A stretch of 64,000 nucleotides of DNA from a virus: IMG/VR virus record IMGVR_UViG_3300024054_000015, positions 16,046-80,045 of that record. One strand, given 5' to 3'. This document shows positions 1,622 through 36,292 of the stretch, piece by piece (position 1 is the stretch's first letter; each line of letters starts with the position of its first letter). The position numbers were made by a program, and so were the translations under genes. The notes under the pieces are model-generated. The model made no database searches and had not been told where the DNA came from. It worked only from the letters and a program-made list of their open reading frames with translations.

Positions 1622-2481
1622 TTTCAAAGCGTATGGCGTTCTTCTGGGTTGGTCGCATGTCTTGGCTAAGGTGGCTGACCCTCAGTAGCTTCGTTAGGTT
1701 CAACCCAGACTGGGAGGTTGTGCTTTACACAGCCGACAGTGAGTTTGTCGGGTCAAAGCATTGGAAGTCTGACAACGACGACGATAGCTCCTACGAGGGG
1801 CCTGACTATTGGGAGCATATTCCAAAGCAGGTCATCGTCAAGAAGTTTGTACCACCTTCCGTAATGAGTGCTGCCCAGATGTGTGATCTGTTCCAGTGGT
1901 GGTACTTGGGCACAGAGGGTGGGTTCTATGCCGACATGGACATCCTGTGGCTCCGGCCTTTCGATGAGACTTATAGAACCTGTCTAAACTCTAACGCTGT
2001 GTTCTGCCTAGAGGGTACACTCCTAGCCATTGGCCTTGTAGGCTCTACACCGGATTGCCCACTGTTCAGGGCTATCTATAGCGGAGCCGAGATAGAGTCC
2101 AATGCCGACTATCAGCACTATGGGACTAACCTTGTCTACAGAGTGTTCGAGATTGGCTATGGTAAACCTCATCCCGGCAAGAAGTTTCTTAACCTAGCTA
2201 GAAGGATCTACCCGAATCTGCAAATAGAGGAGATCCCGCAGAATACGGTCTATCCATTTATCTGGGATGAGGCCGACAAGATCTTTGAGAGAAAGCTGCC
2301 TGTGCCTAACAGTTCTGTAGGAATCCACTGGTTTGGAGGAGGGCCAATCCCTAACAAATGGAACAGGTTATTGACCGAGGACTCCTGGACAAGCTACGAC
2401 AACACTTTCACTGCCAGATTGAATAGGATCTGCAAAGTTGAAGGTAACTTTAATCTATCCCCCACAGCAGTCGCGTCCTGA
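1618..2481 (+). CDS. Glycosyltransferase family 32-like protein
   Basis: The 287-residue protein carries the hallmark GGFYADMDILWLRPFD segment (DxD at residues 106-108) of GT32/OCH1-like and capsular mannosyl- or galactosyltransferases. It also has a C-terminal VGIHWFGGG histidine motif usual in this family. It would use a nucleotide sugar and a divalent metal. The ATG at 1618 overlaps the upstream stop. The end overlaps the next gene by 44 bases. Confidence 0.8.
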   Translation: MISKRMAFFWVGRMSWLRWLTLSSFVRFNPDWEVVLYTADSEFVGSKHWKSDNDDDSSYEGPDYWEHIPKQVIVKKFVPPSVMSAAQMCDLFQWWYLGTEGGFYADMDILWLRPFDETYRTCLNSNAVFCLEGTLLAIGLVGSTPDCPLFRAIYSGAEIESNADYQHYGTNLVYRVFEIGYGKPHPGKKFLNLARRIYPNLQIEEIPQNTVYPFIWDEADKIFERKLPVPNSSVGIHWFGGGPIPNKWNRLLTEDSWTSYDNTFTARLNRICKVEGNFNLSPTAVAS

Positions 2482-3796
2482 CATTCCCCACAAGCCAGAG
2501 GCTTCCCTAGCTTATCCTTATCTGGCTGGGGGTCTACTAGACCTTGGTGTAAGTGTCAGTATCTATGACGCCTGTGTAGGGAACAGTAAAGATCCTGAGG
2601 ACGTGTTCTACAACTCTGTGGACCTCCCTAGTGGGCTACGCAGATACGGGGTTTCAGACGACAGGATCTTAGAGGAGGTTAGCGACAGTGACCTAGTTGG
2701 CATCACTTCCATATTCACTGCTCAGGAAACGATGGCCCTGTACGTCGGCAGGCTCATCAAGAAACATTTTCCAGACAAGGTCTTGGTTTGTGGCGGCACC
2801 AATGCCAGAAGCAGACCTAGGATGTTCATCAAGTCTGGGTTTGACGTGGTCTGTATGTCTGAGGCCGACTACAGCATCCAAGCCATCGCCTACGCAGTAG
2901 AGAACCACAGGCCGACTAGAAGGTTCTACCGGCAACCACTGATCACCAACCTGGACCAGCTTCCCATGCCAGCTTGGGAGCTACACCAGAACGATCGGTA
3001 CTGGCAGTTAGGAAAGCCTCACGGTTCAGCCCAAGGTGAGGGCTTCAAGTACGCTCCCATCATGACCTCTAGAGGATGTGTGTTCAGGTGCAGCTATTGC
3101 CACATCTCAGGAGAGCAAGGCATCTGCAAGTTTCGTGTCAAGTCCTTGGACAGGGTTTCCTTAGAGTTGGAGAAGCTTCGCACCCTGGGTGTAGAGAACC
3201 TCTTCATTGAGGACGACACGCTATTCGGGAACAAGCCCAGGGGCCTTGACGTCTTGAGGCTAGTCCAGCAGTTCAGCTTTAAGGTCTGGGACATCAACGG
3301 CGTCAACATTGCCCACCTGTTCAAAGGCAGCGAGCCAGACCAAGAAGTCCTGGACACTCTTCAGGCTTGTGGCTTTGCAGCCCTGACCATTCCAGTAGAG
3401 TCTGGTAGCCAGAGGATCCTGGACAAGTACGCCTCCAGGAAGTGGCAGGTAGCCAGATACGACATATCGAAACTCATCAAGGGTCTGAACAGCAGAGGCA
3501 TCAAGGCAGGCGTGAACTACATGCTGGGCTATCCAGACGAGACCCTAGAGGAGATGCAGTCAACCATCGCTCTAGCTCAGAAGCTAAGAGACGCTGGGGC
3601 GAACAGTTCAAACTTCATGATCGTTATCCCACTGCCTGGAACTGCCATCTATGACATGGCTATTAGGGAGGGGTATCTGGATCTAGACTTTAACCCAGAT
3701 ACGTTCAACTGGAGGCAAGCCAGCATGAAGAATACAACCGTGCCAGCAAGTCAAATAGAGGAGATGCAAGCCGAAGCCTACGCCAAGCTAAACTAG
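2438..3796 (+). CDS. Radical SAM protein with B12-binding-like N-terminus
   Basis: The start is TTG at 2438 (protein begins MKVTLIYPP, the usual first strand of these enzymes), with AGGA about 9 bases upstream. Residues 1-160 form the Rossmann-like domain of the BchE/hopanoid-type family. It ends in LVCGGTNAR but lacks a clear DxHxxG cobalamin ligand. The radical SAM core has SRGCVFRCSYC (C214, C218, C221 for the 4Fe-4S cluster) and a GVNYMLGYPDET strand. Such enzymes methylate or rearrange unactivated carbons. Clustered with three glycosyltransferase-type genes, it may modify a sugar or a nucleobase; the substrate is unknown. It is the last gene before the inverted repeats at 3.8-4.0 kb. Confidence 0.8.
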   Translation: MKVTLIYPPQQSRPDIPHKPEASLAYPYLAGGLLDLGVSVSIYDACVGNSKDPEDVFYNSVDLPSGLRRYGVSDDRILEEVSDSDLVGITSIFTAQETMALYVGRLIKKHFPDKVLVCGGTNARSRPRMFIKSGFDVVCMSEADYSIQAIAYAVENHRPTRRFYRQPLITNLDQLPMPAWELHQNDRYWQLGKPHGSAQGEGFKYAPIMTSRGCVFRCSYCHISGEQGICKFRVKSLDRVSLELEKLRTLGVENLFIEDDTLFGNKPRGLDVLRLVQQFSFKVWDINGVNIAHLFKGSEPDQEVLDTLQACGFAALTIPVESGSQRILDKYASRKWQVARYDISKLIKGLNSRGIKAGVNYMLGYPDETLEEMQSTIALAQKLRDAGANSSNFMIVIPLPGTAIYDMAIREGYLDLDFNPDTFNWRQASMKNTTVPASQIEEMQAEAYAKLN

Positions 3797-12339: not shown

Positions 12340-12535
12340 CAGCGTTCTCCTGACTGGCTGGAATCAAGACTTCCATCATGTTCCAGATGAGGTCATTGTA
12401 ACCGATGATCCCTTCCCACTGAAGGAATCTCTCCAAAACCTCTCGGGGCCGCATGTTGGCGATATCTTCCTCCGTGTACCCAGCATCATCCAGGGAATCC
12501 ACGACCATCATTGGTAGTCTTTCAACGTCGATCAT
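12329..12535 (-). CDS. Unknown acidic helical protein, 68 aa
   Basis: TTAGGAG precedes ATG 12535. The protein is acidic and helical (MVVDSLDDAGYTEEDIANM). It is the first gene after a structured leader (12541-12710) whose sequence just before the start matches the leader of the gene at 12764-13468. Confidence 0.7.
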   Translation of the reverse strand: MIDVERLPMMVVDSLDDAGYTEEDIANMRPREVLERFLQWEGIIGYNDLIWNMMEVLIPASQENADGQ

Positions 12536-12575
12536 ATTGACATCTCCTAAGCTAAACCGAACACTAGAAACACAG

Positions 12576-12621
12576 CCCTCACGGTAGGAATCGCACCTAC
12601 TCTCGATCGCGTCTGTGAGGG
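12576..12621 (-). ncRNA. tRNA-like minihelix in mRNA leader, copy 1
   Basis: On the minus strand CCCTCAC (12615-12621) pairs perfectly with GTGAGGG (12576-12582). Inside, GTAGG-TGCGATT-CCTAC (12584-12600) looks like a tRNA T-arm. There is no room for D and anticodon arms, so this is not a tRNA. The next bases, GGGCTGTGTTTC then GCTTAGGAG, recur in the leader at 13523-13564. I infer a structured leader element. Confidence 0.45.
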
Positions 12622-12640
12622 TTAGCCCATCTTTACGAGT

Positions 12641-12664
12641 TTACCAGACTCTGGGCTGTAGCAT
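12641..12664 (-). CDS. Possible 7-codon leader peptide
   Basis: AAGGAGGTGA, a full-length match to the 16S rRNA tail, lies 6 bases before ATG 12664. This opens Met-Leu-Gln-Pro-Arg-Val-Trp-stop just upstream of the minihelix. Such a strong site for so short an ORF suggests a regulatory peptide, but a chance match is possible. Confidence 0.25.
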   Translation of the reverse strand: MLQPRVW

Positions 12665-12680
12665 GGGTCACCTCCTTTCA

Positions 12681-12752
12681 TTTCGTTGCGCTTAGGGGAT
12701 GCAACGAAACCCATCAAAGGAGTCTGCTGGCAGAGTCAACCACCAGCAGACT
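12681..12752 (-). terminator. Tandem hairpins downstream of the coiled-coil gene
   Basis: AGTCTGCTGG (12721-12730) pairs with CCAGCAGACT (12743-12752), a 10-bp stem 11 bases past the stop of the gene at 12764. Next on the minus strand, TTTCGTTGC and GCAACGAAA (12681-12689, 12701-12709) form a second 9-bp stem with an 11-base loop. No clear T tract follows, so termination may be partial. Confidence 0.6.
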
Positions 12753-12763
12753 TGACCTCATGC

Positions 12764-13468
12764 TTACTCCTGGGCCTTGGCCTTCTTCAGTTCCTCACGA
12801 CCCTTGGCCGTGATCTTGAACCGCTTCCCTCGCACCCCCTCCTCCGGCACGAGCTCTTCGAGCAGCCCGCCTTCCACGATCTGGGGCAGCTTCTTGCCCT
12901 TCTGGATTCCAGTGCTGTCGGCGATCTCACTGGCAGTCCGAATGTTGCCGTCATCCATGGCCTCCAGCACCTTGATCATGTTCGGCGTCAAGCCATTGAA
13001 TGACTTCCGGCCTTCCCCCTTGGCCCTCGCCAGCTTCGGCAGCGGTCCAATCGAGGCCCGGTGCTTCTTGGCATCCTCCAGAATGCTCCACTCCTCGGTG
13101 TACTCCAGTTCCCGTTGGGCTTTCGCCACAGCGGCATCGGCCAGAGCGATCTCCTCCTCCTTCTTGGCCCTCTCAGCCAAGGCCAACTTCTTCTCGTTTT
13201 CCTTGGCCTCCTTCTTGGAGTTCTTCTCCTTTTTCTCCTTCTCCTGGGCTTGCTTCAGCTCCTTCTTGAGCTCCTCCATCTTCCGCTTGATGGCCTCCTT
13301 GGCCTCGTTCTGGGCCTTGGCCTTCTTGACGTTCTCCTCGTCCATCTTCTTCTCCTCGGGGGTCGTGGCGGGCTTCCCAACCGGCAGGGGCTTCGTGGTC
13401 CCCTCGGCGGCCTTCTTCTTCTGCTCCTCGGCCTTCTGCTGGTTCTGCGGGTTCTGATTCTTAGCCAT
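12764..13468 (-). CDS. Coiled-coil protein with C-terminal winged helix
   Basis: 234 residues from ATG 13468 (MAKNQNPQNQQ) with AGGAG 7 bases upstream; the ORF extension into the leader is not used. Residues 1-150 are Lys/Glu/Ala-rich helix without breaks, a long coiled coil. The last ~75 residues are a winged helix: LTPNMIKVLEAM, TASEIADSTGI, KKLPQIVEGGLLEEL and RGKRFKIT as the wing. The same domain forms the protein at 32906-33226, so the two are paralogues. It may be a DNA-binding scaffold or transcription regulator. Confidence 0.75.
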   Translation of the reverse strand: MAKNQNPQNQQKAEEQKKKAAEGTTKPLPVGKPATTPEEKKMDEENVKKAKAQNEAKEAIKRKMEELKKELKQAQEKEKKEKNSKKEAKENEKKLALAERAKKEEEIALADAAVAKAQRELEYTEEWSILEDAKKHRASIGPLPKLARAKGEGRKSFNGLTPNMIKVLEAMDDGNIRTASEIADSTGIQKGKKLPQIVEGGLLEELVPEEGVRGKRFKITAKGREELKKAKAQE

Positions 13469-13522
13469 CTGTTGCTCCTGCGCTCCTAAGCGCTGTAAAC
13501 GAAACGAAACACGAAACACAGC

Positions 13523-14801: not shown

Positions 14802-14996
14802 TCACTCCTGGCTTTCGGCTTTCCTCGCAAGCTCCATCAGGGCACTGGTAATCTGCTCCTCTGTTATTCTAGCCTTTCGGCTCTTTGTGTTGTCGGTCAT
14901 CTGTACAAAACATCTCAGCCTTCTATTCGTTTTCGCTCTTATCATGTTCTCCGTAACAAACACGGAATTCATTCCACCTAGTTCTCTAACGCTCAT
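14802..14996 (-). CDS. Unknown small protein, 64 aa
   Basis: ATG 14996 has GGGAG 8 bases upstream and overlaps the upstream gene by 4 bases. A basic middle (NTKSRKARITEEQI) precedes a helix. A 5-bp GCCGG/CCGGC hairpin lies just after the stop. Unknown. Confidence 0.6.
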   Translation of the reverse strand: MSVRELGGMNSVFVTENMIRAKTNRRLRCFVQMTDNTKSRKARITEEQITSALMELARKAESQE

Positions 14997-15397
14997 AGCT
15001 TTACTCCCAACTTTTCCATTCTGGCCGTTACCTCGGCCATCTCTTCATCACTCAAGGTTACTCCAGCCTGCTCGCAGGCTTGCAGTGCTGCCAACAGGGC
15101 TTGCATTTCATCCAGTTGCCCTCGCAGCTTCTTCGGCCTGTTCTTCTCTGCAATAAGTTCATTCTGCTTCTCGTTACTCTTATGGTAGCACGCCTGGCAT
15201 ACCGTCGTAACGTTCCAAGTGTCATAACCATTCTGGTTAATCAACAGCCTCGTAGCTTCCACTTCCTCCGCCTCCTCCACTGTAAGGCAAGGCTTGCAGT
15301 GGTAGGGGCAGTTTCGGCATCGTCCTATTCGGTACACTTCAGGTGGCATACTACCTGCCCTCCCGTCCTTATTTCCAAATGGTAATATTCTAATCAT
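14993..15397 (-). CDS. Zinc-finger protein, 134 aa
   Basis: I choose ATG 15397 (MIRILPFGNKDGR) over the GTG at 15406 because the purine-rich site fits better. CRNCPYHCKPC and CQACYHK suggest an HNH-like or zinc-knuckle fold around a helix rich in acidic residues. A C-terminal coiled coil follows (LDEMQALLAALQACEQ). No HNH catalytic His-Asn-His pattern is clear, so I do not call a nuclease. Confidence 0.65.
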   Translation of the reverse strand: MIRILPFGNKDGRAGSMPPEVYRIGRCRNCPYHCKPCLTVEEAEEVEATRLLINQNGYDTWNVTTVCQACYHKSNEKQNELIAEKNRPKKLRGQLDEMQALLAALQACEQAGVTLSDEEMAEVTARMEKLGVKL

Positions 15398-15474
15398 TCG
15401 CTCCACGCCTTACACTGCCTGCGCTGCCTGCTATACGCTGCGCCACTGTGTAGGCAAAAACCAATAGGCGCAAT

Positions 15475-15504
15475 AAAGCCCGTATGGCAAGCCATACGGG
15501 CTTT
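15475..15504 (-). terminator. Perfect hairpin terminator
   Basis: AAAGCCCGTATGGC (15475-15488) and its exact complement (15491-15504) form a 14-bp stem with a tiny loop. On the minus strand it lies 18 bases after the stop of the gene at 15522 and runs into a TTTATTG tail. The AAGCCCG/CGGGCTTTA arms recur near 37253-37283. Confidence 0.8.
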
Positions 15505-15521
15505 ACGTGCGCTGCGCTGTG

Positions 15522-15875
15522 TTACTTGCCAGCGCTTACCAGCATGTAGTAGGCTGTGCCACCAACGGTAGTACCGTTGTTGCCAACGTAGCCGCCAGTG
15601 GTAACGCTTACCACTTGGCCAGCGCTGGCAAGCTTGCGCAATGTGCCGCGCAGTGGTGCCCATACAAGCTTGCCATTGCTGCGCTTGCGCGGCTTAAAGC
15701 CGCAAGCTTGCGCTACTTGGCGCAGTGTGTAGGGCTTACCTGCCTGCAAGCTTGCAAGTACTGCGCTGCCTTGCGGCGCTGCCTGCGCTGTGCTGGCAAG
15801 CGCTGCCTGCAATGCTGCAAGCGCTGCCTGTTGGGGGCTGGTGGTGGTGCTGGTGGTGGTGCTGGTGGTTGCCAT
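15522..15875 (-). CDS. Winged-helix-like protein in a codon-outlier island
   Basis: 117 residues from ATG 15875, with AGGGGT upstream. It starts with a Thr/Ser stretch (ATTSTTTSTTTS) and an Ala/Gln helix. A compact domain follows: LRQVAQACGFKPRKRSNGK as a helix-turn-helix-like unit, LRGTLRKLASAG, and a Gly/Tyr-rich wing. Codon choice is unlike the neighbours: Arg is CGC, Ala GCA/GCG, Ser AGC, and AAGCTT and AGCGCT recur, while flanking genes use AGG and AGA. Its own terminator and this bias suggest recent transfer as a unit. DNA binding is inferred. Confidence 0.7.
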   Translation of the reverse strand: MATTSTTTSTTTSPQQAALAALQAALASTAQAAPQGSAVLASLQAGKPYTLRQVAQACGFKPRKRSNGKLVWAPLRGTLRKLASAGQVVSVTTGGYVGNNGTTVGGTAYYMLVSAGK

Positions 15876-24561: not shown

Positions 24562-24787
24562 AATCTATGAACCATTGGATATGCACACAGAGTGTCGGCG
24601 GATAATCAAGCTCCGCATTGCGGAGCTTGGGCTCCTGCGGGCGGAAGTGGAGCGGTTGCGGAAGGCGTTGCTGTGTCCAGAGTGCGCTGGGAAAGGACAA
24701 GTGGCTGTGTTTGGTATCACTACCGTTAACTGGATGGACTGCCCCAACTGCGAGGCAGCGAAGATCCGAAAGGAAGCACAGAAATGA
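24554..24787 (+). CDS. DnaJ-type zinc-finger protein with leucine zipper, 77 aa
   Basis: A helix (LGLLRAEVERLRKALL) is followed by CPECAGKGQVAV and CPNCEAAK, the CxxCxGxG style of DnaJ zinc fingers. Overlaps neighbours by 8 and 4 bases. It may be a small chaperone-like or RNA-binding adaptor. Confidence 0.7.
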   Translation: MSKIYEPLDMHTECRRIIKLRIAELGLLRAEVERLRKALLCPECAGKGQVAVFGITTVNWMDCPNCEAAKIRKEAQK

Positions 24788-26280
24788 GTAAGACTAGAAA
24801 GTTGCAGTTTGAGAATCTCGAGTCCCGTCAGTTGCTCTCGACCGATCTATGGCCGAAAGGGGTGGGACTGAAGGCCGATGTCTTCGTCGATGGCGGGGTT
24901 GAATTGTCGAAGGTGTCGTTGGCAAAATCCGCCAACCTCGCTGGACTCACACGCGAAGTGTTCTTCACCAACAGTGGTGCGACGACGCGCGCTGTGATCG
25001 GTGGCAATGCCAACGATACCAACGGTGCTCTGCTGTTCCCGGATGGCCAGCCGCGATTTGGCACCATCTATGTCAACGGCGGATCGGCGGGTCATGCCAA
25101 GATAATGGGCGCGGCGGGGCGACAAGCAATAGAAACCTTCTATGCCCACGGAGGTTCCTACACCGGCTCGTGTGCTGGTGAGTTTGTGGCAGCACGTCGT
25201 ATTCCGTCGCTTTGGGGCGGGAAGGTTGGTAATCAAGGTAACACAGGAAGACAAACCATTACGTTTGATGAAACCGACCATCCGCTGGTGCAGGATTTGA
25301 TGCGCTGGAACGGCGGCAGTAATGTCGTCACCAACGTCCCGCACTATTGGGGACCGACGAACCGGGAATCTTATCCGCATCCCGAGGGGACGCTGTTCCT
25401 CGGCACGATTACGGGCGGGCTGTATCGTGGAACCGATTTCCTCGTCGAATACCAACGCGATGCGGAATCGGGGGTAACGGTGCTCAGCCCCTCCCATCCT
25501 GAGTATGGTAGGCAGGCTAGTCATACAGCCTTGATGGCGTCGATACTAAAGCGGGCCAACGATCTGTCGCGCACCACACCGGACCTGAAGGGCACGCTGG
25601 TTAGCGACCAGTCCTTGGAAATGAGCGGCCCGGAACAGAAAGTCGGTGATGGGCAGTATCACAGATATACGCTCGAGGTTCCAGAGGGAACGAGCGTACT
25701 GTACGTGGGTCTCACCAACCTTAGCGGCAACGCTGACCTCTTTATACAGAAGGATGGCGTAGCGCACGCTGGTAGCTACCTAGTGAAGTCAACCAACGTC
25801 GGCGATGACATGGTGGCAATTCCAAGCCCGGAGGCTGGCACGTATGAGATCAGTGTGTTCGGGGCACATACGGTGTTGAATGGTGCAGCCTACACTTTGT
25901 CAGTGAAAGCTCAAGCGGTGGACATGGTACTAGCGGAAGCGGAGATGAACATGAGTGACGAGGTGAAGGTCGAAGGTCCGTACACCTTCGGGTTGACCCC
26001 TGGCTCCAAGTTGGAGGTCCAGACCATTGAAGGTCAGGAGATCGATCGCCTGCGGGTGGAAATGGATCAGTTACAAAAGAAACTGGATGAGGCTAACAAG
26101 TTGTTGGCCGCGTCGATGCGACTGTTGAAGAATCGCGATTACTATTGGAGTTGGAACTATAAGCTGGAGCAATACGGCTACTTCAGCCAGGGTGAGTACG
26201 TCGGTACGGAGTTACTGGACGTGGTGAAACTGGAGGCCAGACTCGCAAATGAAAGAGCCAGCAACAGTAACGCCAGTTGA
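24784..26280 (+). CDS. Chimeric cargo protein: GATase1-like domain, PPC domain, coiled coil
   Basis: 498 residues. The N-terminus QFENLESRQLLS (8-19) is the LExRxLLS signature of exported planctomycete proteins. Residues ~25-260 resemble a class I glutamine-amidotransferase/BPL_N fold: TIYVNGGSAG, then GGSYTGSCAG with C130 at the nucleophile elbow. Residues ~285-378 are a pre-peptidase C-terminal (PPC) beta domain (YTLEVPEGTSVLYVGL, NADLFIQKDG). The last 110 residues are a coiled coil (RLRVEMDQLQKKLDEANKLL) like the phage proteins just upstream. DNA of the first ~1.1 kb is more GC-rich than its surroundings. I infer a host gene captured and joined to a phage coil. Confidence 0.75.
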   Translation: MSKTRKLQFENLESRQLLSTDLWPKGVGLKADVFVDGGVELSKVSLAKSANLAGLTREVFFTNSGATTRAVIGGNANDTNGALLFPDGQPRFGTIYVNGGSAGHAKIMGAAGRQAIETFYAHGGSYTGSCAGEFVAARRIPSLWGGKVGNQGNTGRQTITFDETDHPLVQDLMRWNGGSNVVTNVPHYWGPTNRESYPHPEGTLFLGTITGGLYRGTDFLVEYQRDAESGVTVLSPSHPEYGRQASHTALMASILKRANDLSRTTPDLKGTLVSDQSLEMSGPEQKVGDGQYHRYTLEVPEGTSVLYVGLTNLSGNADLFIQKDGVAHAGSYLVKSTNVGDDMVAIPSPEAGTYEISVFGAHTVLNGAAYTLSVKAQAVDMVLAEAEMNMSDEVKVEGPYTFGLTPGSKLEVQTIEGQEIDRLRVEMDQLQKKLDEANKLLAASMRLLKNRDYYWSWNYKLEQYGYFSQGEYVGTELLDVVKLEARLANERASNSNAS

Positions 26281-26892: not shown

Positions 26893-26898
26893 TCTACG

Positions 26899-26984
26899 GG
26901 CCTGATAGTGTAATCGGTAGCACATTGCTGTTCAAGATCGGTGGCTTGGCAGTGAAGGTGTGGGTTCGAATCCCACTAAGGTCC
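26899..26984 (+). tRNA. Class II tRNA, probably Leu (anticodon CAA)
   Basis: Acceptor GGCCTGA pairs with TAAGGTC (one mismatch, one G-T). The D-arm is GTGT-AATCGGTA-GCAC, the variable arm is long (18 bases, CTT/AAG stem), and the T-arm is a perfect GTGGG-TTCGAAT-CCCAC. The AATCGGTA D-loop and long variable arm fit tRNA-Leu with loop TTCAAGA, anticodon CAA. By strict numbering the loop would be GTTCAAG, anticodon TCA. The anticodon stem is weak in both readings. CCA is not encoded. Confidence 0.7.
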
Positions 26985-27251
26985 TTGAAAACAAGACTGT
27001 AAATCTGGCAGCAGTAATGTCGCAACGCACAGTCTACAACCGACCTCACGGACGCTCGCGAAAGCGTTGGTCTGGCAGGTTTGTGCGTAGCTGTAGAAAT
27101 GTCTGGTCTTTGTTCGCGGGAGCTGGACCGTCTCCACGGAGACGTTTCGAGCCTACACTCCTTTCCACAGATGGGCTTTTGTCCGGGTTAGCCGCCGGAC
27201 GCTGGTGGGCTCCGGAAGCTAATGTCCGTCCCACCCAACTAAGCAGTACCT
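26985..27251 (+). other. Gap after the tRNA, no confident gene
   Basis: An ORF runs through it from inside the tRNA (26960-27355), Arg/Ser-rich, without a ribosome site; I do not call it. It contains a small ACGCT/AGCGT hairpin near 27052. I found no second tRNA T-arm here. Confidence 0.35.
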
Positions 27252-27918: not shown

Positions 27919-29925
27919 GTGCCGAAAGTAAAGGAGCATATCTATGCCTTGGATACCGAAGCTACAGGGTTAGATCTAAGGCATGGGGCTAGGCCGTTCT
28001 TTGTCAGCATTTGCACACAGGACAACGAGGTACACTATTGGGAAGCTACAGTTGATCCACTAACTAGGAGGCCTTATTGGAAAGAGGAGGACTTGTATGA
28101 AATCCAGGAGATGATAGATGAGGCCGATACCTTGGTCCTGCAAAACCCTCGGTACGACTTTCGTGGGCTGGACCTGTTGGGACTCAGGGCTGGTACTCCA
28201 AGGAATTGGATCAAGGTCCGCGATACGTTAATGGCTGGGCATCTGCTAGTGTCCAATCAGCCACATGATCTAACCACTATGGCTATGATCTATCTGAGGC
28301 TGAACATTCAACCACTTGAGGACAAGCTGGAGGCAGCGGTTAAGGAGGCCGTTAGGATTGCCAAGCGCAAGTACCCTAAGTGGAGGTTGGCTAAGAAAGA
28401 CCTGCCCGAGATGCCTAGTGCCAAGGACAAGGTCTGGAAGTACGACTCCTGGCTACCCAAGGCTATTGCCGCAGCAGAGGGCTACGAGCCTGACCATGAC
28501 TGGTGGACCGTTCTAGCAAACTACGGCAACGGCGACAGTAGTGTGACCCTGCCGTTGTACTTAGCCCAGGAGAAGCTGCTAATCAAGGCTGGGCTTTACA
28601 GTATCTACAAGTTCCGGCTCAAGCTGTTGCCAACCATCTACAAGATGGAAACACATGGCATGACTATGAGTAAGGAGCGGACCACCGAACTACTGGCTAG
28701 GCTCACAGATGAATCCGAGCAGTGTCGCGCTAACTGTATAGAGCTCTCTGATGGAGAGTTGGAGGACTTGCCCGTTAATGGAATGAGCAATGCTCTACGG
28801 CATGTGCTGTTTGAGAAGTTCTCCTTACACTCACCTAAGCAAACAGCCGCAGGAAAGTCCAGTGCTGACAAGTTCGTGCTGGACCACTGGATCGCTACTC
28901 TTCCAGAAAGTTCCAGGGCTTGGAAGTTTGTTAACGACCTGAAGAGGTACCGAAAGCGTAAGACTGCCATAGGGTACATTCACTCCTATGAGAAGTTCTG
29001 GCAGCATACGGTAGTCACGCTGCGTGGTAGTGGTACTGTCATGATAGTGTACCCCTCGTATAATCCGACGGGCACAGATACGCTGCGGTTCAGTAGCCAG
29101 AACCCTAATGCCCAACAGGTCAGCAAGCAGGAGGAGGTCAACACTCGCTACTGCTTTGGTCCAGCCCCAGGTCGTGAGTGGTGGTCCATAGACTTCTCCA
29201 ACCTGGAGTTGCGTATCCCAGCCTACGAGTCGGGCGAAGAGGAGATGATATTCCTGTTCGAGCATCCGAACGATCCACCCTACTATGGCTCCTACCACAT
29301 GATGATCTTCGACACGCTGCACCCTAACCTGTTCCTGGAACATGGTATGGAGTGCAAGAAGGTCTTCGAGTCTACGTGGTATCAGTGGACCAAGAATGGA
29401 AACTTTGCTGTGCAGTATGGGGCTGTGGAGCATAGTGGTACGGCAGATAAAGCCTACCACGTACTAGGAGCCCAGCGTAAGATCATGTCGCGGTTCACTA
29501 GGATCAAGCAACTCAGCAATCGGTGGATCGAGTTCGCCAATAAGTCTGGCTATGTGGAAACAATGCCCGACAAGACAGTGGACCCTATTCGGGGTTATCC
29601 CCTATACTGTACCCGCACCAACTACGGCAAGGTCTTGGAAACAGTGCCTCTAAGCTACCACGTTCAGGGTACTGCCATGTGGATCACCTGTAGGGCGATG
29701 ATTGACTGCCAGAACTACTTGGACATACATAAGAGTAGTGGTGGCAGGATAATCTCACAGATCCATGACGAGATCCTGTTCGACTTCCCGGTAGGTGTAG
29801 GCAAGCACCATGTTGGGAATCTTAGGAAGCTAATGGAGCAGGTAGGTCAGGATATTGGGGTTCCATTGGCAACCACTTGCGGCTATCATCCAGTAACTTG
29901 GGCCAAGTCGGAGAACTATCAGTGA
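27919..29925 (+). CDS. Family A DNA polymerase with 3'-5' exonuclease
   Basis: 668 residues from GTG 27919, preceded by GGAGGAG. The exonuclease motifs are YALDTEATG (D12, E14), NPRYDFRGLD and YGNGDSSVT. The polymerase motif A is DFSNLELRIPAY (~424), the O-helix is TKNGNFAVQYG, and motif C is QIHDEILFDF (~616). Layout and length match T7-like replicative polymerases, without a 5'-3' exonuclease. Motif A has Asn-Leu in place of the usual Gln-Ile, which may suit altered nucleotides. Confidence 0.95.
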   Translation: MPKVKEHIYALDTEATGLDLRHGARPFFVSICTQDNEVHYWEATVDPLTRRPYWKEEDLYEIQEMIDEADTLVLQNPRYDFRGLDLLGLRAGTPRNWIKVRDTLMAGHLLVSNQPHDLTTMAMIYLRLNIQPLEDKLEAAVKEAVRIAKRKYPKWRLAKKDLPEMPSAKDKVWKYDSWLPKAIAAAEGYEPDHDWWTVLANYGNGDSSVTLPLYLAQEKLLIKAGLYSIYKFRLKLLPTIYKMETHGMTMSKERTTELLARLTDESEQCRANCIELSDGELEDLPVNGMSNALRHVLFEKFSLHSPKQTAAGKSSADKFVLDHWIATLPESSRAWKFVNDLKRYRKRKTAIGYIHSYEKFWQHTVVTLRGSGTVMIVYPSYNPTGTDTLRFSSQNPNAQQVSKQEEVNTRYCFGPAPGREWWSIDFSNLELRIPAYESGEEEMIFLFEHPNDPPYYGSYHMMIFDTLHPNLFLEHGMECKKVFESTWYQWTKNGNFAVQYGAVEHSGTADKAYHVLGAQRKIMSRFTRIKQLSNRWIEFANKSGYVETMPDKTVDPIRGYPLYCTRTNYGKVLETVPLSYHVQGTAMWITCRAMIDCQNYLDIHKSSGGRIISQIHDEILFDFPVGVGKHHVGNLRKLMEQVGQDIGVPLATTCGYHPVTWAKSENYQ

Positions 29926-30311
29926 AGGCTAAGTGTGTAGCTATCTTAGATACTATGTGGGGAGGATCTGGCAAGGCTCCAGGTATGTTTAGGATAAACC
30001 CTAAGAACCACACAGGCCGGAGGCTGTACTGGTTCCTCGGCCACAAGGATCTATGGGTTACGAATGCCTGCACAGAGTACGTCGCCAATGCCAAGCTGCA
30101 CGGGAGGCCAGACCCTAAGAGGTTGGCAACTAACCTCCAGAGAGTCACCTGTGACCTATTGCTGGTCTGTGGTTCGGTGGCTGCTAAAGCCTTTAGGAAG
30201 TGTGGCTACAAACCGAAGTGTAGGGTCATATACATTCCGCATCCAGCTTGGCGTGGTTGGACAATGGAGCACTTGGAAGAAGTGAGAAGGAGAATACAAG
30301 ATGAAGATTGA
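29922..30311 (+). CDS. Uracil-DNA-glycosylase-fold protein, 129 aa
   Basis: GTG 29922 overlaps the polymerase stop (GTGA) and has GGAG 9 bases upstream. It has an ILDTMWGGSGKAPG loop, a LLLVCGSVAAKAF strand-helix and VIYIPHPAWRGW, which line up with the GxAPG-like, central and HPS/HPA motifs of UDG-superfamily proteins in order. It is shorter than true UDGs and lacks the catalytic Asp/Asn pattern I would expect. It is followed directly by the hypermodification genes, so it may bind or act on modified uracil. Confidence 0.55.
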   Translation: MKAKCVAILDTMWGGSGKAPGMFRINPKNHTGRRLYWFLGHKDLWVTNACTEYVANAKLHGRPDPKRLATNLQRVTCDLLLVCGSVAAKAFRKCGYKPKCRVIYIPHPAWRGWTMEHLEEVRRRIQDED

Positions 30312-31179
30312 AGATGTTAGGAAGCTAAGCCCAGAAGGGAGGTTTCTGTATTGGGTTGGGGAAAGATGGAATATCCTTAGCAAGAGAAGGAGTGGCTATG
30401 TAAGGCCCTGGACGAATGACAAGATCTTACAGTCCTACTACTTTACCAATGTGAAGCGTAAGGATGACAAGGTCACCATCTGGGTTACTGAGAACATTAT
30501 TGGACCAATGCAATGGGATCCACTGGTCATCTTTGCAGTCCTAGCCTTTCGGTGGTTCAACCAACCCCAACCTTCTGGAGAGTATCTAGTAAGTCATGAT
30601 CTTCTAAAGCTGTGGAACTGCGAGTTGGCAGTGAAGGGACTTACAGGGTTCAAGAACGCGGGCTTGAAAGTGTTCACTGGAGCCTTTAACATTTCCAATG
30701 GAGGTAGTAGCAAGCCTAAAGTCAACCGCGTCTGCGAGGACTACATCCAGCCAGTATGGGAGTGTCGAGAGAACTTACTGAACCGTATATTAGAGCCCAA
30801 GGAGCGTACCCTCGCAAGAGCCTTTGAGGTAATCTCCGAGTATCCAGGTATGGGTGGCAGTGGCTTCATGGCTGCTCAGGTTGTCTGTGATCTAGCCTAC
30901 ACACACTTTCTAGAGGATGCTAAGGACTTTGAAACATGGTGTTCCTGGGGTCCGGGAAGTAGACGTGGTATGAATAGAGTGTGTGGCTTTGATGAAAACT
31001 TTCCAATGCCAGCAGGGGATTGGAATGTTAGACTTCAACGCTTGCGTGGGGTCATCAGTAGGAAGCTTGGCCTAAACCTCCATGCCCGCGATGTTCAGAA
31101 CTGTCTATGTGAGTTCTCGAAATACGAAAGGGCTTTGTGGAATCAAGGTCACTTAAAGAGGAGGTACAAGGGTGCCTAG
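30301..31179 (+). CDS. aGPT-pyrophosphorylase/5-hmdU kinase helical-domain protein
   Basis: 292 residues, AAGGAG 8 bases before ATG 30301. The block RPWTNDKILQSYYFTNVKR (35-53) plus KDDKVTIWV is the hallmark of the all-helical, glycosylase-related family (alpha-glutamyl/putrescinyl thymine pyrophosphorylase and the helical part of 5-hydroxymethyl-dU DNA kinase). These enzymes act on 5-hydroxymethyl-dU in phage DNA so that amines or sugars can be attached. No P-loop kinase domain is fused here. Followed, with 8 bases of overlap, by a TET-associated-type glycosyltransferase. Confidence 0.75.
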   Translation: MKIEDVRKLSPEGRFLYWVGERWNILSKRRSGYVRPWTNDKILQSYYFTNVKRKDDKVTIWVTENIIGPMQWDPLVIFAVLAFRWFNQPQPSGEYLVSHDLLKLWNCELAVKGLTGFKNAGLKVFTGAFNISNGGSSKPKVNRVCEDYIQPVWECRENLLNRILEPKERTLARAFEVISEYPGMGGSGFMAAQVVCDLAYTHFLEDAKDFETWCSWGPGSRRGMNRVCGFDENFPMPAGDWNVRLQRLRGVISRKLGLNLHARDVQNCLCEFSKYERALWNQGHLKRRYKGA

Positions 31180-32089
31180 AATACAGGAGCAGTTGATTGT
31201 CTATGTCCCCACTAGGGGAAGAGCTCGCAAGCAGACAACCCTCAAGCAGTTTGACCTCTATAAAAGGCCAGACGTGTTTGTAGTGGTTCCAGAGTGTGAA
31301 CGCAGGTTGTGGACTAGGGATGTGCTGGTAGTTCCAGACGACTACAAGTTTTCTGACATTCGGCAGTTCATCCTTAACTGTCCTGGGAAGTACCATCTGG
31401 TGTTGGATGACGACCTAAGACCCGCGGTCAGAAGGATCGACGATCCAACTAAGTTCACCAACCTAGAGGTTATGGACAGGGCTTCTAGGGCAGACCATAT
31501 TGACCAACTGTTTGATACGATACTGTCGTTACTCCAAGAGGGATGGGTGCATGGAGGCATTGCGGCTCGGCAAGGGGCCAACAACGACACCAATCAGTAT
31601 CAGTTCTGTAGTCGGGTGGTAAGAGCCCACTTCTACAACGCAGAGATTGTGAAGAGTCTAGGACACGACTTTCGGCAGTTCGTTATTAAGCAGGACTATG
31701 ACTTCATCCTGTCCATGCTGTGTAAGGGGATCCCTAACATAGTGATAAACGAATATGTCCAGGATCAGGTTGGCAGTAACACTTCAGGAGGTTGCTCCAG
31801 GTATAGGACAAGCTCGGTGCTAGAGGAAGGAGCTAATCTACTACACCAGAAGTATCCAGACTTCGTAAAGGTGGTGCATAAGCACCCCAAGACTTCCTGG
31901 GGAGGAAAGCCTAGAGTGGATGTAGTGATCCAGTGGAAGAAAGCCTATAAGGAGGGGTTAGAGTATGCCCGTCATTTACAGAGAAAGAATCCGGCCTCCA
32001 TGGACAATAAAGATAGAGCAATCGCGCGGTTGCAACCTCTCATGCAAGTTCTGTCCAATAAACTACTTGAAGGAAATCAACCAAAGTAG
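31172..32089 (+). CDS. TET-associated-type glycosyltransferase (TAGT)
   Basis: 305 residues from GTG 31172, GGAGG 7 bases upstream. LIVYVPTRGRARKQTTL (8-24), VFVVVPECE, LVVPDDYKFSDIRQF and YHLVLDDDLRP (D79-D81) follow the pattern of the TAGT family, GT-A enzymes that attach sugars to oxidised 5-methyl groups of bases in phage DNA. KQDYDFILSML gives a later acidic motif. In this cluster the acceptor is likely 5-hydroxymethyl-dU or a derivative. No TET/JBP oxygenase is visible in the window, consistent with the hydroxymethyl group coming from the TS homologue instead. Confidence 0.7.
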   Translation: MPRIQEQLIVYVPTRGRARKQTTLKQFDLYKRPDVFVVVPECERRLWTRDVLVVPDDYKFSDIRQFILNCPGKYHLVLDDDLRPAVRRIDDPTKFTNLEVMDRASRADHIDQLFDTILSLLQEGWVHGGIAARQGANNDTNQYQFCSRVVRAHFYNAEIVKSLGHDFRQFVIKQDYDFILSMLCKGIPNIVINEYVQDQVGSNTSGGCSRYRTSSVLEEGANLLHQKYPDFVKVVHKHPKTSWGGKPRVDVVIQWKKAYKEGLEYARHLQRKNPASMDNKDRAIARLQPLMQVLSNKLLEGNQPK

Positions 32090-32861
32090 GAAGTTCCTAA
32101 GCCCCTCAATGTGTAGGATTATTACTCGGCAGGCAGTGGAGCTAAAGCCCAACCTGAGAGTGGAACTGACCCTTAGAGGGGAGCCTACTCTAAACCCGCA
32201 CATTCTGGAGAACCTCTCCATTATTAGAGAGGAGGCGCCTGAGTTCCAGATAAGTCTGTTCACCAATGGGGTGAAGACCTTTGGTGATCCGTCCCTGATC
32301 GTAGCGTTGCTGGATGCAGGTGTGAACATCCTGTGCATCGATTGCTACAACAATACCTACCAGAGATTTCTCGAAGCTGCCAAGAGAACCAAGGAGCAGG
32401 TCGTGGACTTCAGGGAGTTCTCTGCCTACAAGAGATACAGGAACGGTCATAGGCTACGGGTTATCAACCTAGTACCCGACATCCAGGAGGGATCTGTAGA
32501 CGTCAGGAAGATCCACAATAACGCTGGAAACGTGGACCCCGAGTACCTGTCTAAACTTGAGGGCTACGTTAAGCAAGCCCTACCATTGGCCCGAGGATGC
32601 TCTAGACCATTCACTGAGGTTGTGGTCTACTACAATGGGGATGTTCCAATCTGCTGTAGTGATTGGAAGGCTGAGTATGTCCTAGGTAATGTTATGGACC
32701 AAGACCTATCGGACATCTGGTATGGTAAGAGACACTACGAAGCCTTGGTGAAGCTTCACATGTCTAGGGCAGATAGAAGTCTACCTCCATGTGCCAAGTG
32801 TGACTACCACGGTGGGTATCGTCTTGGACTTCTGCAAGATCCAATAAAAAACCCCCGCTGA
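31965..32861 (+). CDS. Radical SAM/SPASM protein
   Basis: 298 residues; AAGGAGGGG precedes ATG 31965, which lies 125 bases inside the glycosyltransferase gene. QSRGCNLSCKFCP gives C23, C27, C30 of the radical SAM cluster, and LTLRGEPTLNP the SAM-binding GE motif. The C-terminal GCSRPFTEVVV, VPICCSDW and PPCAKCDY supply Cys ligands for SPASM auxiliary clusters. Such enzymes modify peptides, sugars or bases by radical chemistry. The strong overlap with the TAGT gene implies a linked step in base or sugar tailoring. Confidence 0.8.
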   Translation: MPVIYRERIRPPWTIKIEQSRGCNLSCKFCPINYLKEINQSRKFLSPSMCRIITRQAVELKPNLRVELTLRGEPTLNPHILENLSIIREEAPEFQISLFTNGVKTFGDPSLIVALLDAGVNILCIDCYNNTYQRFLEAAKRTKEQVVDFREFSAYKRYRNGHRLRVINLVPDIQEGSVDVRKIHNNAGNVDPEYLSKLEGYVKQALPLARGCSRPFTEVVVYYNGDVPICCSDWKAEYVLGNVMDQDLSDIWYGKRHYEALVKLHMSRADRSLPPCAKCDYHGGYRLGLLQDPIKNPR

Positions 32862-32880
32862 ACACCGTTCAACGAGGGTT
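32850..32880. terminator. Bidirectional terminator
   Basis: A 14-bp stem with two imperfect pairs, AACCCCCGCTGAAC (32850-32863) and GTTCAACGAGGGTT (32867-32880), has a 3-base loop. A6 lies on the left side and TTGTTTGTGTT on the right, so it can end both the plus-strand operon and the minus-strand gene at 32906. Confidence 0.85.
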
Positions 32881-32905
32881 GTTTGTGTTGATCGTAGTTG
32901 CCGTG

Positions 32906-33226
32906 TTAGCTCTTTGATTCCTTCAGGGCTTTTTCCAGGGCTTTTCGACCAACGGGTGTAATCTTGAATCTCTTGCCACGCTTGCCTTCCTCGGCCACCA
33001 GTTCCTGTAGATATCCTTTCTCCACAAGCTCGGGCAGTCGGCGTCCCTTGTCGATCCCGGTCGAGGAACTGATCTCAGCGGCAGTCAACACGCTACCACT
33101 CTTCAGCGAGTCCAACACCTTCATCATGTTGGGAGTAAGATCCTTTGGCTCCCGAGGGGTTTGCTCCTTCTTCTCCTCCTTGGCGACCTTTCCCTTCTTC
33201 ACTGGAAGTTCTGCTGTCTTGGGCAT
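32906..33226 (-). CDS. Winged-helix regulator, paralogue of the 12.8-kb protein
   Basis: 106 residues from ATG 33226 with AAAGGAG upstream. A Lys/Glu tail precedes LTPNMMKVLDSLK, TAAEISSSTGI, RRLPELVEKGYLQEL and RGKRFKITPVGRKAL, more than half identical to the C-terminus of the protein at 12764-13468. It is a lone minus-strand gene inside the plus-strand region with its own promoter, the usual placement of a regulator. Confidence 0.8.
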   Translation of the reverse strand: MPKTAELPVKKGKVAKEEKKEQTPREPKDLTPNMMKVLDSLKSGSVLTAAEISSSTGIDKGRRLPELVEKGYLQELVAEEGKRGKRFKITPVGRKALEKALKESKS

Positions 33227-33272
33227 CAAATGCTCCTTTAGAAATGTAACCAACAAAACACCACTACCTTGC

Positions 33273-33300
33273 ATTGTAGGGTATAATGAAGTATTGGCAA
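33273..33300 (-). promoter_or_regulatory. Sigma70-type promoter of the winged-helix gene
   Basis: On the minus strand TTGCCA (33295-33300), 16 bases and TACAAT (33273-33278) match 5 of 6 consensus bases each. On the plus strand the same region has TATAAT at 33282-33287, so a divergent promoter for the thymidylate synthase homologue may overlap, though I see no good -35 for it. Confidence 0.65.
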
Positions 33301-33366
33301 GTCCTAGCTGAAAAATTTGTTCAAATAGTTGCAACTCGTGTTCCCACTCTCACTTAGGAGCAGACA

Positions 33367-34413
33367 ATGCACCTGTCTTACATGAATGTGAACGCCGCTT
33401 TCAACGACTTGGTGTGCAAGTTCCACTACAGTGAAATCCCCATAACTGTAGCCCCTAGTAGGAATGGGGACGTGATCATGGCGACCCAGCCCATGACCAT
33501 CACCTACCTGAACCCCAAGCAAAGAGTCTTGTTTAACGAGGCTCGGGATTGCAACCCATTCTTTCATCTGTTTGAGTCCTTGTGGATACTGGCTGGCAGG
33601 GATGACGTCGCTCCTCTGAAGTATTTTGTGTCTACGATTAATGAGTTCTCTGACACAGGTTTCACGTTCAATGGTGCCTATGGTCAGAGATTGAGGTACT
33701 TCCATAGGATTGATCAGATTAAAGAGGCCATTGCCCAACTGAAGCACAACCCAAACTCTAGAAGGGTAGTGCTACAGATGTGGACTCTCTCAGACATGAT
33801 GAAAGCTGACAACAGACATGGAACCATGTCCAAGGACGTTCCATGCAACACACATGCCTACGTCTCTATCAACCCACTTGGCCTAGAACTAACTGTCTGT
33901 AACCGAAGCAACGACATGATCTGGGGAATGCTGGGAGCCAATGTCGTACACTTCTCTTTCCTTCAGGAATACTTGGCGGCTTGTATAGGAGTTCCGGTCA
34001 ACGTCTACAATCAGTTCACTAACAACCTACACGTTTACCGAAGCAACTGGAAGCCAGATGAATGGTTGAGTGACCGGACCGAGGATCTGTATAGTATGCC
34101 ACGCGTCTTGAGAGCAGTGCCCTTAGTAAAAGACGTAGAGAGGTTCAACTACGAGTGTGCAGAGTTCATAGACCTAAAGGAGGATGGAGTCTATCAGGAA
34201 CCATTTCTTAACGACGTAGCTGTCTGGGCTTGCTTGGGGTACAGACACCATAAGAACCGGGAGTACCCTCGAGCTCTGGAAGCTGTGTCCAGGATAGAGT
34301 CTGATGATTGGAGAGTTGCTTGTCGTAGGTGGTTGGAACGAAGGTCAGTAGCTTGGAGGAAGAAGAATGGAGATGTCGAAAGAGCCGAGAGTTGTGATAA
34401 CGCTGAGGCTTAG
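33367..34413 (+). CDS. Thymidylate synthase homologue, probable dUMP hydroxymethylase
   Basis: 348 residues, TTAGGAG before ATG 33367. The fold is shown by NGAYGQRLR (phosphate-binding region), SRRVVLQMW, DVPCNTHAYVSI with nucleophile C160, CNRSNDMIWGM and NQFTNNLHVY. Classical TS has PCH after the Cys loop and QRSxD; here Asn follows the Cys and QRS is NRS, as often seen in hydroxymethylase variants. N192 keeps the position that favours uracil over cytosine. I infer 5-hydroxymethyl-dUMP formation, but plain dTMP synthesis is not excluded. Confidence 0.8.
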   Translation: MHLSYMNVNAAFNDLVCKFHYSEIPITVAPSRNGDVIMATQPMTITYLNPKQRVLFNEARDCNPFFHLFESLWILAGRDDVAPLKYFVSTINEFSDTGFTFNGAYGQRLRYFHRIDQIKEAIAQLKHNPNSRRVVLQMWTLSDMMKADNRHGTMSKDVPCNTHAYVSINPLGLELTVCNRSNDMIWGMLGANVVHFSFLQEYLAACIGVPVNVYNQFTNNLHVYRSNWKPDEWLSDRTEDLYSMPRVLRAVPLVKDVERFNYECAEFIDLKEDGVYQEPFLNDVAVWACLGYRHHKNREYPRALEAVSRIESDDWRVACRRWLERRSVAWRKKNGDVERAESCDNAEA

Positions 34414-35138: not shown

Positions 35139-35684
35139 ATGCCGTTTACACAGAAAATTTTAGACAGATTCTGGTCCAAGGTAGATAAGAAAGGTCCTAT
35201 CCATACAGCCTATGGGAAATGTTGGACCTGGAGTAGTGCAATTAACAATAAAGGATACGGTGTGTTTAGCCTACGTAGAGGTAGAAATTCCTACTCTCAC
35301 AGGCTATCTTGGAGGATTCATTATGGTAAGATTCCGGACGGGATGTGTGTACTTCACAAGTGCGACAACCCAAGATGTGTAAATCCAAGCCATTTATTTC
35401 TTGGATCTCACAAGGACAACACGCAGGACATGATTAGAAAGGGAAGGAGAGGATACACTGGAGTATCTGGAGACTCAAATCCTTCCAGGACTCATCCAGA
35501 GTGTTTAGCTAGAGGCTCTAGTCATGGAATGGCAAAGCTATCAGAAGGTCAAGTTTTAGAAATTCTTAAACTTAGAAAGGTTGGGTATACGCAGGCCAGA
35601 TTAGGAAAGATGTTTGGTGTTAGCAGGGAGCAGATTAAGAATATTGTCAACAATAAGCAGTGGAGACATGTCGTATGTCAATGA
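35139..35684 (+). CDS. Free-standing HNH homing endonuclease, 181 aa
   Basis: The core SHRLSWRIHYGKIPDG, VLHKCDNPRCVNPSHLFLG and NTQDM matches the enzyme at 18854-19318. The C-terminus has a helix-turn-helix (YTQARLGKMFGVSREQI) typical of NUMOD-like target modules. Codons are AT-richer than nearby genes. It sits between the unknown gene and mazG. Confidence 0.85.
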   Translation: MPFTQKILDRFWSKVDKKGPIHTAYGKCWTWSSAINNKGYGVFSLRRGRNSYSHRLSWRIHYGKIPDGMCVLHKCDNPRCVNPSHLFLGSHKDNTQDMIRKGRRGYTGVSGDSNPSRTHPECLARGSSHGMAKLSEGQVLEILKLRKVGYTQARLGKMFGVSREQIKNIVNNKQWRHVVCQ

Positions 35685-36292
35685 CTCTAAAAGAGTATCA
35701 ACAGTTAGCTCTACGAACGGAATGTGATCAAAATCGCAGTCTTAACAACATTGTTCATCATCAGCCTCCACTTATTACTGTTAGGGCGCTACACAGTGTG
35801 ATTGGAATGTCTGGAGAAGTAGGTGAATTATCTGGGTCCATAGAGAAATGGATCTACTATGGACAACCCTTGGATGTTTTGAATATCAAAGAGGAGATAG
35901 GAGACCTACTATGGTATGTGAATCAGTTATGCAGCGTGTTACATCTGGACCTAGGACAGATCATGGAGGCCAACATTGCCAAGCTGAGACAACGCTATCC
36001 CCAGAAGTTCGAGGAAGTCTTAGCCAAGGAAGAGAACCGCGACCGTGCTGCTGAGGCGGAGTGTGTAGCCTGTAGCACAGGTGGAAACATGAACTGTTCG
36101 GAGGAAGTCACGGAGAGTGGATCCGACTTCATCAAGCATCAAATGCTGAATAAGCCTAGGACTGCTCTCTGCCCTCATTGTGGTGGGCATCTGAATAGAC
36201 AGGCTTGTAACAGGGCTGCTGAGGGTGGTAGGTCCGTAGCGTGCCCAGACTGCTTGAAATCGTTTTCCGTTAAGGAGATCAGATACGCATGA
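35675..36292 (+). CDS. MazG-like NTP pyrophosphohydrolase with zinc ribbon
   Basis: 205 residues from ATG 35675, GGAG 9 bases upstream, 10 bases of overlap with the HNH gene. GEVGELSG (47-54) and IKEEIGDLLWYV (71-82) give the E-x-x-E and E-x-x-x-D metal motifs. The last 55 residues carry CPHCGGH and CPDCLK, a zinc ribbon not usual in MazG. It would hydrolyse dNTPs to dNMPs, for example removing normal or damaged pyrimidine nucleotides in a phage with modified bases. Confidence 0.85.
   Translation: MSMTLKEYQQLALRTECDQNRSLNNIVHHQPPLITVRALHSVIGMSGEVGELSGSIEKWIYYGQPLDVLNIKEEIGDLLWYVNQLCSVLHLDLGQIMEANIAKLRQRYPQKFEEVLAKEENRDRAAEAECVACSTGGNMNCSEEVTESGSDFIKHQMLNKPRTALCPHCGGHLNRQACNRAAEGGRSVACPDCLKSFSVKEIRYA

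Follow-up and report, generated by a model that had tools for sequence, protein, structure and literature searches.

A kinase-free viral gene set pairing HMUDK_hel with a TAGT glycosyltransferase and a BtrN-like radical SAM enzyme, a candidate route to sugar-modified 5-hydroxymethyluracil in DNA

In the phages M6, ViI and phiW-14 the post-replicative modification of 5-hydroxymethyldeoxyuridine (5hmdU) is thought to run via a 5-hydroxymethyluracil (5hmU) kinase (PMC6449724), and the M6-like cassette comprises a hydroxymethylase, the protein HMUDK_hel (aGPT-Pplase1), the kinase, a radical S-adenosylmethionine (SAM) enzyme, a pyridoxal-phosphate enzyme and aGPT-Pplase2 (PMC9476957). The TAGT glycosyltransferase of T2 and T6 adds glucose to glucosyl-5-hydroxymethylcytosine (glucosyl-5hmC), and 288 of 753 surveyed phage genomes have TAGT but neither the alpha- nor the beta-glucosyltransferase of T4 (PMC13216743). 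Here we describe a viral gene set that joins these 5hmU and TAGT worlds. It lies at positions 30301-34413 of a 64,000-base stretch, hereafter the window, which spans positions 16046-80045 of the 80,045-base IMG/VR virus record IMGVR_UViG_3300024054_000015, and it encodes HMUDK_hel, a TAGT-family glycosyltransferase, a BtrN-like radical SAM enzyme and a thymidylate synthase (TS) homologue. As a putative kinase-free sugar branch it recurs in dozens of uncultured viruses. We propose, giving the pathway as a whole about an even chance, that the set directs a 5hmU-based post-replicative sugar modification in which glycosylation by TAGT is followed by editing of the sugar by the radical SAM enzyme; the functional steps rest entirely on family membership and gene context. 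Pyle et al. (2024) reportedly described virus glycosyltransferases acting on 5hmC, Lee et al. (2022) are said to have listed combinations of thymidine-hypermodification genes, and priority for the TAGT/HMUDK_hel pairing is uncertain.

The four open reading frames (ORFs) singled out by an initial annotation of the window are all intact, on the plus strand and where it had placed them. Its family assignments were borne out, with HMUDK_hel, TAGT, radical SAM/SPASM and Thymidylat_synt each scoring above the curated Pfam cut-off and PHROGs in agreement, and the motifs it had cited (PWTND, FTNVKR, PCN and NRS) could be confirmed. The HMUDK_hel protein (5-hmdU DNA kinase helical domain; 30301-31179, plus strand, 292 residues, phrog_2396) matches PF18723 at 133.4 bits (cut-off 25; 1.4e-38) over model positions 7-277 of 281; it is 25-38% identical to homologues adjoining TAGT and 33% identical to M6 gp55, and retains the invariant residues R22, N50, R53, D56, F189, D209, G217, G219, G223, C270, E271 and K274. 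The TAGT-family protein (31172-32089, plus strand, 305 residues), a proposed 5hmU-DNA glycosyltransferase, matches PF20691 at 40.5 bits (cut-off 27.5; 3.6e-10; model 2-204 of 205) and phrog_842 ('beta-glucosyl-HMC-alpha-glucosyltransferase') at 5e-35. It thus belongs to the same family as the T2/T6 enzyme, and its DDD at residues 79-81 (window 31406-31414) is invariant, together with R64 and Q65, in an alignment of 10 relatives; a search of the TAGT profile against the PDB gave chance matches only. In contrast to T2/T6, the set has no further recognisable DNA glucosyltransferase, and its TS homologue indicates 5hmU. The earlier proposal of a cluster for modifying a 5-hydroxymethyl-pyrimidine in DNA is supported.

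The starting base is indicated by the TS homologue (33367-34413, plus strand, 348 residues), a proposed dUMP hydroxymethylase (5-hmdUMP synthase) that matches PF00303 at 74.2 bits (cut-off 24.3) and phrog_5131 (thymidylate synthase) at 4e-93. The PCN motif around the catalytic Cys (C160, window 33844-33846) and the GAN motif containing Asn192 (33940-33942) are common to this protein, SPO1 gp29 and M6 gp58. The Asn of the GAN motif, which contacts the pyrimidine, is present in SPO1 gp29, annotated as a dUMP hydroxymethylase, whereas T4 gp42, a dCMP hydroxymethylase, has Asp in this position. The protein therefore combines the TS fold, the catalytic Cys, PCN and an Asn-type site like that of SPO1 gp29, the sequence features of a dUMP hydroxymethylase. 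Its SPO1-like active-site residues suggest transfer of a hydroxymethyl rather than a methyl group, and from established knowledge of these families the product is expected to be 5hmdUMP. As the initial annotation had supposed, dUMP and not dCMP is the likely start, given Asn in place of the T4 Asp and the PCN and GAN motifs in common with the SPO1 enzyme. In the proposed pathway 5-hmdUMP made from dUMP would be phosphorylated and incorporated, replacing some of the thymine. Because the hydroxymethyl group would be supplied by the TS homologue, no TET enzyme would be needed; consistent with the earlier remark that none was visible, neither the 80-kb record nor ten relatives gave a match to Tet_JBP (PF12851), in a search in which no positive control matched.

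These residues also bear on a sugar carried by 5hmC as in the T-even phages, with the TS homologue acting as a dCMP hydroxymethylase or a standard thymidylate synthase. Such a scheme would suit the naming of TAGT and phrog_842 after 5hmC glucosylation and the activity of the T2/T6 enzyme on glucosyl-5hmC (PMC13216743). It is opposed by Asn192 with its SPO1-like GAN and PCN motifs, by the Asn type of all 81 typed (by motif) of 84 TS homologues from TAGT-bearing loci, and by HMUDK_hel, a protein of 5hmU pathways, which adjoins TAGT in most TAGT loci, and we hold it to be distinctly improbable.

Like the M6/YuA-type cassette for 5-(2-aminoethyl)dU, the locus has a TS homologue (39% identical), HMUDK_hel and a radical SAM gene (PMC9476957). 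It differs in that a glycosyltransferase replaces the 5hmU kinase and the amino acid:DNA transferase (ADDT), which M6 carries with HMUDK_hel as separate genes (kinase gp54, PF18748; HMUDK_hel gp55; ADDT gp51), and in that the radical SAM enzyme is BtrN-like with no BLAST similarity to M6 gp53, for which reason homology to gp53 was dropped. Neither the kinase (PF18748) nor ADDT (PF18724) was found in the 80-kb record, which may be incomplete and to which gene absences in this virus refer, while phage M6 was matched as a positive control in both searches. The initial annotation was thus correct in seeing no 5hmU kinase here, although this is not peculiar to the virus, as HMUDK_hel recurrently pairs with a glycosyltransferase.

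Partner exchange beside HMUDK_hel is seen from several directions. A search with HMUDK_hel only returned 49 viral records, 31 with the kinase, six with TAGT and one (L017) with both, an overlap as small as this having a chance probability of P = 0.02; in 25 of the 31 records with the kinase, it and HMUDK_hel are no more than 400 bases apart. TAGT records without the kinase contained no ADDT. Neither TAGT nor a GT-B-like gene occurs within 3 kb of HMUDK_hel in any of 32 kinase/HMUDK_hel loci (L017 left out), and the 18 kinase-less HMUDK_hel loci include five with TAGT and one with a GT-B-like gene. A search with the TAGT alignment yielded 80 loci, 73 of them with HMUDK_hel, which lies within 400 bases in 56. 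None of 50 records from the TAGT and radical SAM searches that were scanned for the kinase had it, the same model matching M6 and others as positive controls. A tree of 86 HMUDK_hel proteins requires, in its most parsimonious reconstruction, 10 kinase/TAGT changes, at least seven of them across well-supported branches. An undetected diverged or host kinase might still phosphorylate 5hmU and feed an M6-type amino-acid hypermodification with glycosylation as a side branch: two of the 18 kinase-less loci (L005 and L024) encode diverged P-loop proteins that scored below the kinase cut-off or gave no score, and L017 combines kinase, ADDT and TAGT. The lack of PF18748 and PF18724 in the 80-kb record and of the kinase across the 50 records argues against it, and its probability appears very low.

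Because the partner exchanges repeatedly between kinase and TAGT, the simplest reading is that HMUDK_hel has a function common to both chemistries, presumably the handling of the 5hmU base in DNA, while the adjoining enzyme sets the chemistry. Within the proposed pathway HMUDK_hel would serve as partner on the DNA side, recognising or presenting 5hmU, and TAGT, occupying the place held elsewhere by the kinase, would attach a sugar directly to the hydroxymethyl oxygen; direct glycosylation would render both the kinase and the amino acid:DNA transferase unnecessary.

The remaining member of the set, a radical SAM/twitch (SPASM-type) protein (31965-32861, plus strand, 298 residues; PF04055, PF13186), scores 50.6 bits against SPASM (cut-off 21.5) and 42.4 against Radical_SAM (cut-off 29.5). 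Its CX3CX2C motif (C23, C27, C30; window 32031-32054) and four auxiliary cysteines (C212, C230, C276, C279) are invariant in 19 diverse relatives, as is an extra Cys (C231) directly after C230. BtrN, the 2-deoxy-scyllo-inosamine dehydrogenase, is both the best profile match of the family (3.5e-24) and the best fold match of the protein (8e-14, TM 0.78 by BtrN length), and SpeY, which its PDB entry calls a twitch radical SAM dehydrogenase, was also matched. The likeness to BtrN and SpeY covers the fold, CX3CX2C and the single four-Cys auxiliary cluster of a BtrN-type twitch enzyme. The protein departs from them in an identity of about 18%, in C231 and in that their substrates are small and aminocyclitol-type and, as far as known, not DNA. 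BtrN oxidises one alcohol of its aminocyclitol, the auxiliary cluster probably accepting the second electron (PMC9012708). By analogy, a two-electron alcohol oxidation is the most likely activity of the viral enzyme, which would edit the sugar by dehydrogenation of a hydroxyl to a ketone to give a keto-sugar; epimerisation, or action on the activated sugar prior to transfer, are alternatives for this step. Other twitch enzymes, such as MoaA, perform other chemistry. Relatives in viral contigs were retrieved by alignment-based searches, a single-sequence search having given no matches, and the matches in cultured phages (Campylobacter phages, only about 24% identity) were too distant for use.

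The company kept by this family points to the sugar. A search with the family alignment gave 80 viral loci (229 relatives in all); throughout the analysis many of the records are fragments and some loci near-copies. TAGT lies within 3 kb in 47 of the 80 and a GT-B-like gene in 17 more, the GT-B-like model having been built from the same loci on which these genes were counted. Nine further loci have only an unassigned family, here termed qnd, alongside the radical SAM gene, and L157 and L214 encode sub-threshold TAGT-like proteins. HMUDK_hel is present in 34 of the 80 and all four genes in 20. Within 6-kb flanks, some of which reach contig ends, 23 loci have radical SAM and TAGT without HMUDK_hel or TS, and in virus L059 TAGT and radical SAM are fused in a single chain of 579 residues. 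Other genes of sugar tailoring occur at this place in relatives: L057, with a radical SAM protein that shares 50% identity with that of the window, has a PIG-L deacetylase, and L066 and L152 have FkbM-type methyltransferases; in L152, a contig from a Patescibacteria metagenome-assembled genome (MAG), a GT61 gene and an acyl-carrier-like protein (L152:5702-5995) adjoin the radical SAM gene. A pattern search over 84,980 cellular genomes found only two Patescibacteria MAG contigs, which are perhaps viral, since in both HMUDK_hel and TS adjoin the radical SAM gene. The qnd family (about 290-380 residues, with a motif like WVQxDYxI) adjoins HMUDK_hel or radical SAM in L009, L029, L153, L159 and L180; as three members scanned had no Pfam match it was not counted as a glycosyltransferase, although it is possibly another one. 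A second, similar-looking radical SAM protein of about 450 residues is encoded near the twitch gene in viruses with no HMUDK_hel nearby (L117:7906-9351, L159:7105-8505, L172:1694-3028 and L174:5225-6559), Pfam confirmation being limited to L172.

Because TAGT and radical SAM occur together at loci without HMUDK_hel or TS, we argue that the radical SAM enzyme follows the sugar and not 5hmU. The initial annotation had placed radical chemistry before glycosylation. This order is probably reversed: since the enzyme accompanies glycosyltransferases of more than one fold, also where HMUDK_hel and TS are missing, and most resembles a dehydrogenase of a sugar-like alcohol, action on the sugar after or during glycosylation is more likely. 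A radical SAM component as such is already known in thymidine hypermodification from the M6-like cassette (PMC9476957). That cassette, in which radical SAM stands with TS, kinase and HMUDK_hel, and loci with radical SAM, HMUDK_hel and TS yet no TAGT, would agree with an enzyme that acts on the base, converting 5hmU to another 5-substituted uracil (for example with an oxidised hydroxymethyl or a carbon chain) that TAGT then glycosylates. We consider this unlikely in view of the TAGT loci that carry radical SAM without HMUDK_hel and TS, the GT-B-like gene adjoining radical SAM in most TAGT-less loci, the fusion to TAGT, and the closeness of the enzyme to BtrN and not to M6 gp53.

The same pairs without HMUDK_hel or TS could instead mean that TAGT and radical SAM tailor something other than DNA, such as a virion protein or a host glycan, their position near 5hmU genes having some other cause; a distinct sugar-type cluster, well to the left on the same contig, would be in keeping with this. 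The close spacing of HMUDK_hel and TAGT in 56 of the 80 TAGT loci and the repeated exchange with a DNA kinase make a non-DNA target rather improbable, and we infer DNA to be the substrate. The broader proposition, that HMUDK_hel is a general 5hmU-presenting subunit for kinase, GT-A and GT-B enzymes alike and that a virus-specific BtrN-like radical SAM family modifies the sugars once attached, into keto-sugars for instance, is put forward tentatively, its chances falling somewhat short of even.

Several points weigh against sugar modification of 5hmU by this set. TAGT members of known product have cytosine derivatives as their substrates (T2/T6: PMC13216743), and not 5hmU. L017, with kinase, ADDT and TAGT together, indicates that the exclusion between kinase and TAGT is not absolute. 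Most seeds of the TAGT and radical SAM profiles came from HMUDK_hel loci, so that their co-occurrence is inflated; the HMUDK_hel-first set, which lacks this bias, yields a weaker, though independent, result (P = 0.02). Contigs L155 and L156, whose radical SAM proteins are 41% identical to that of the window, show no recognisable glycosyltransferase alongside. Finally, a fold search with the AF2 model of HMUDK_hel (pLDDT 95.6) gave no significant match, and its sequence profile found nothing in the PDB. The top of the non-significant fold list (E about 1) holds 8-oxoguanine DNA glycosylase and the queuine salvage enzyme DUF2419; these matches lean towards a DNA-glycosylase-like (helix-hairpin-helix) fold, which at such E values is a hint only and is not claimed.

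The kinase-free half of the arrangement has a cultured counterpart. Genes 38-41 of Brevibacterium phage LuckyBarnes are TS, TAGT, TAGT and HMUDK_hel (gene 38 being annotated as hypothetical), so that LuckyBarnes has the same TS-TAGT-HMUDK_hel set with neither kinase nor ADDT, and differs in having two TAGT genes and no radical SAM gene. Sugars on thymine-derived bases are also described for SP-15, and an oligosaccharide on thymidine is proposed for YerA41 (PMC5977210, PMC9023294). SP-15 differs in relying on Thy1 synthases of the flavin type and in having a cluster that resembles genes for teichoic/teichuronic acid, and HMUDK_hel and TAGT go unmentioned in the relevant part of these sources.

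In the window the HMUDK_hel and TAGT genes share 8 bases, and the TAGT and radical SAM genes share 125. The latter overlap, pointed out in the initial annotation, is real, as a ribosome-binding-site-like AGGAGG (31951-31956, plus strand), seen directly in the sequence within the TAGT frame, precedes the ATG at 31965, and the start of the radical SAM relative in L054 aligns at the same point. Because of these overlaps 30301-32861 reads as one translationally coupled unit; the TS gene is placed downstream, beyond an intervening minus-strand ORF. Upstream, a small protein (29877-30311, plus strand) whose gene overlaps the HMUDK_hel start by 11 bases is very weakly like the uracil-DNA glycosylase (UDG) superfamily (PF03167, E = 0.19); it was left out of the set, as this is below the cut-off and no homologue was found in the phage collection. 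Phage genes surround the cluster (terminase, primase, DNA polymerase and others), and no DNA-level similarity of the window to known phages was found.

Elsewhere in the record, the second sugar-type cluster (contig 12472-13515 and 14852-15589, in L002, left of the window; window 21-890, 1618-2481 and 2438-3796) comprises a radical SAM protein with a weak SPASM match, glycosyltransferases of the Caps_synth and Gly_transf_sug families, a methyltransferase, and a second radical SAM protein of the B12-binding kind. A tRNA gene at window 26898-26985 (Rfam tRNA, 41.8 bits) is read by ARAGORN with a four-base anticodon (caag). The protein at 24784-26280 has a weak match to the Planctomycete extracellular signal and a PPC domain, a possible hint of a planctomycete host, and that at 35660-36292 is a MazG pyrophosphohydrolase followed by a possible zinc ribbon in the same chain.

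If the proposal is correct, amino-acid and sugar-type thymine hypermodification would differ by a one-gene swap beside a constant HMUDK_hel, which would assign a role to a domain so far described solely as a kinase 'helical domain', and LuckyBarnes offers a direct test case for the kinase-free half. On the broader proposition this would be a combinatorial system for sugar-modified thymine in DNA, in which radical chemistry takes place on a sugar carried by DNA, something of which we know no precedent. A radical-edited sugar on DNA would bear on how viruses escape restriction and DNA-glycosylase defences, and the enzymes would be new means to label or protect 5hmU DNA. The DNA chemistry of many uncultured viruses would then be predictable from gene order.

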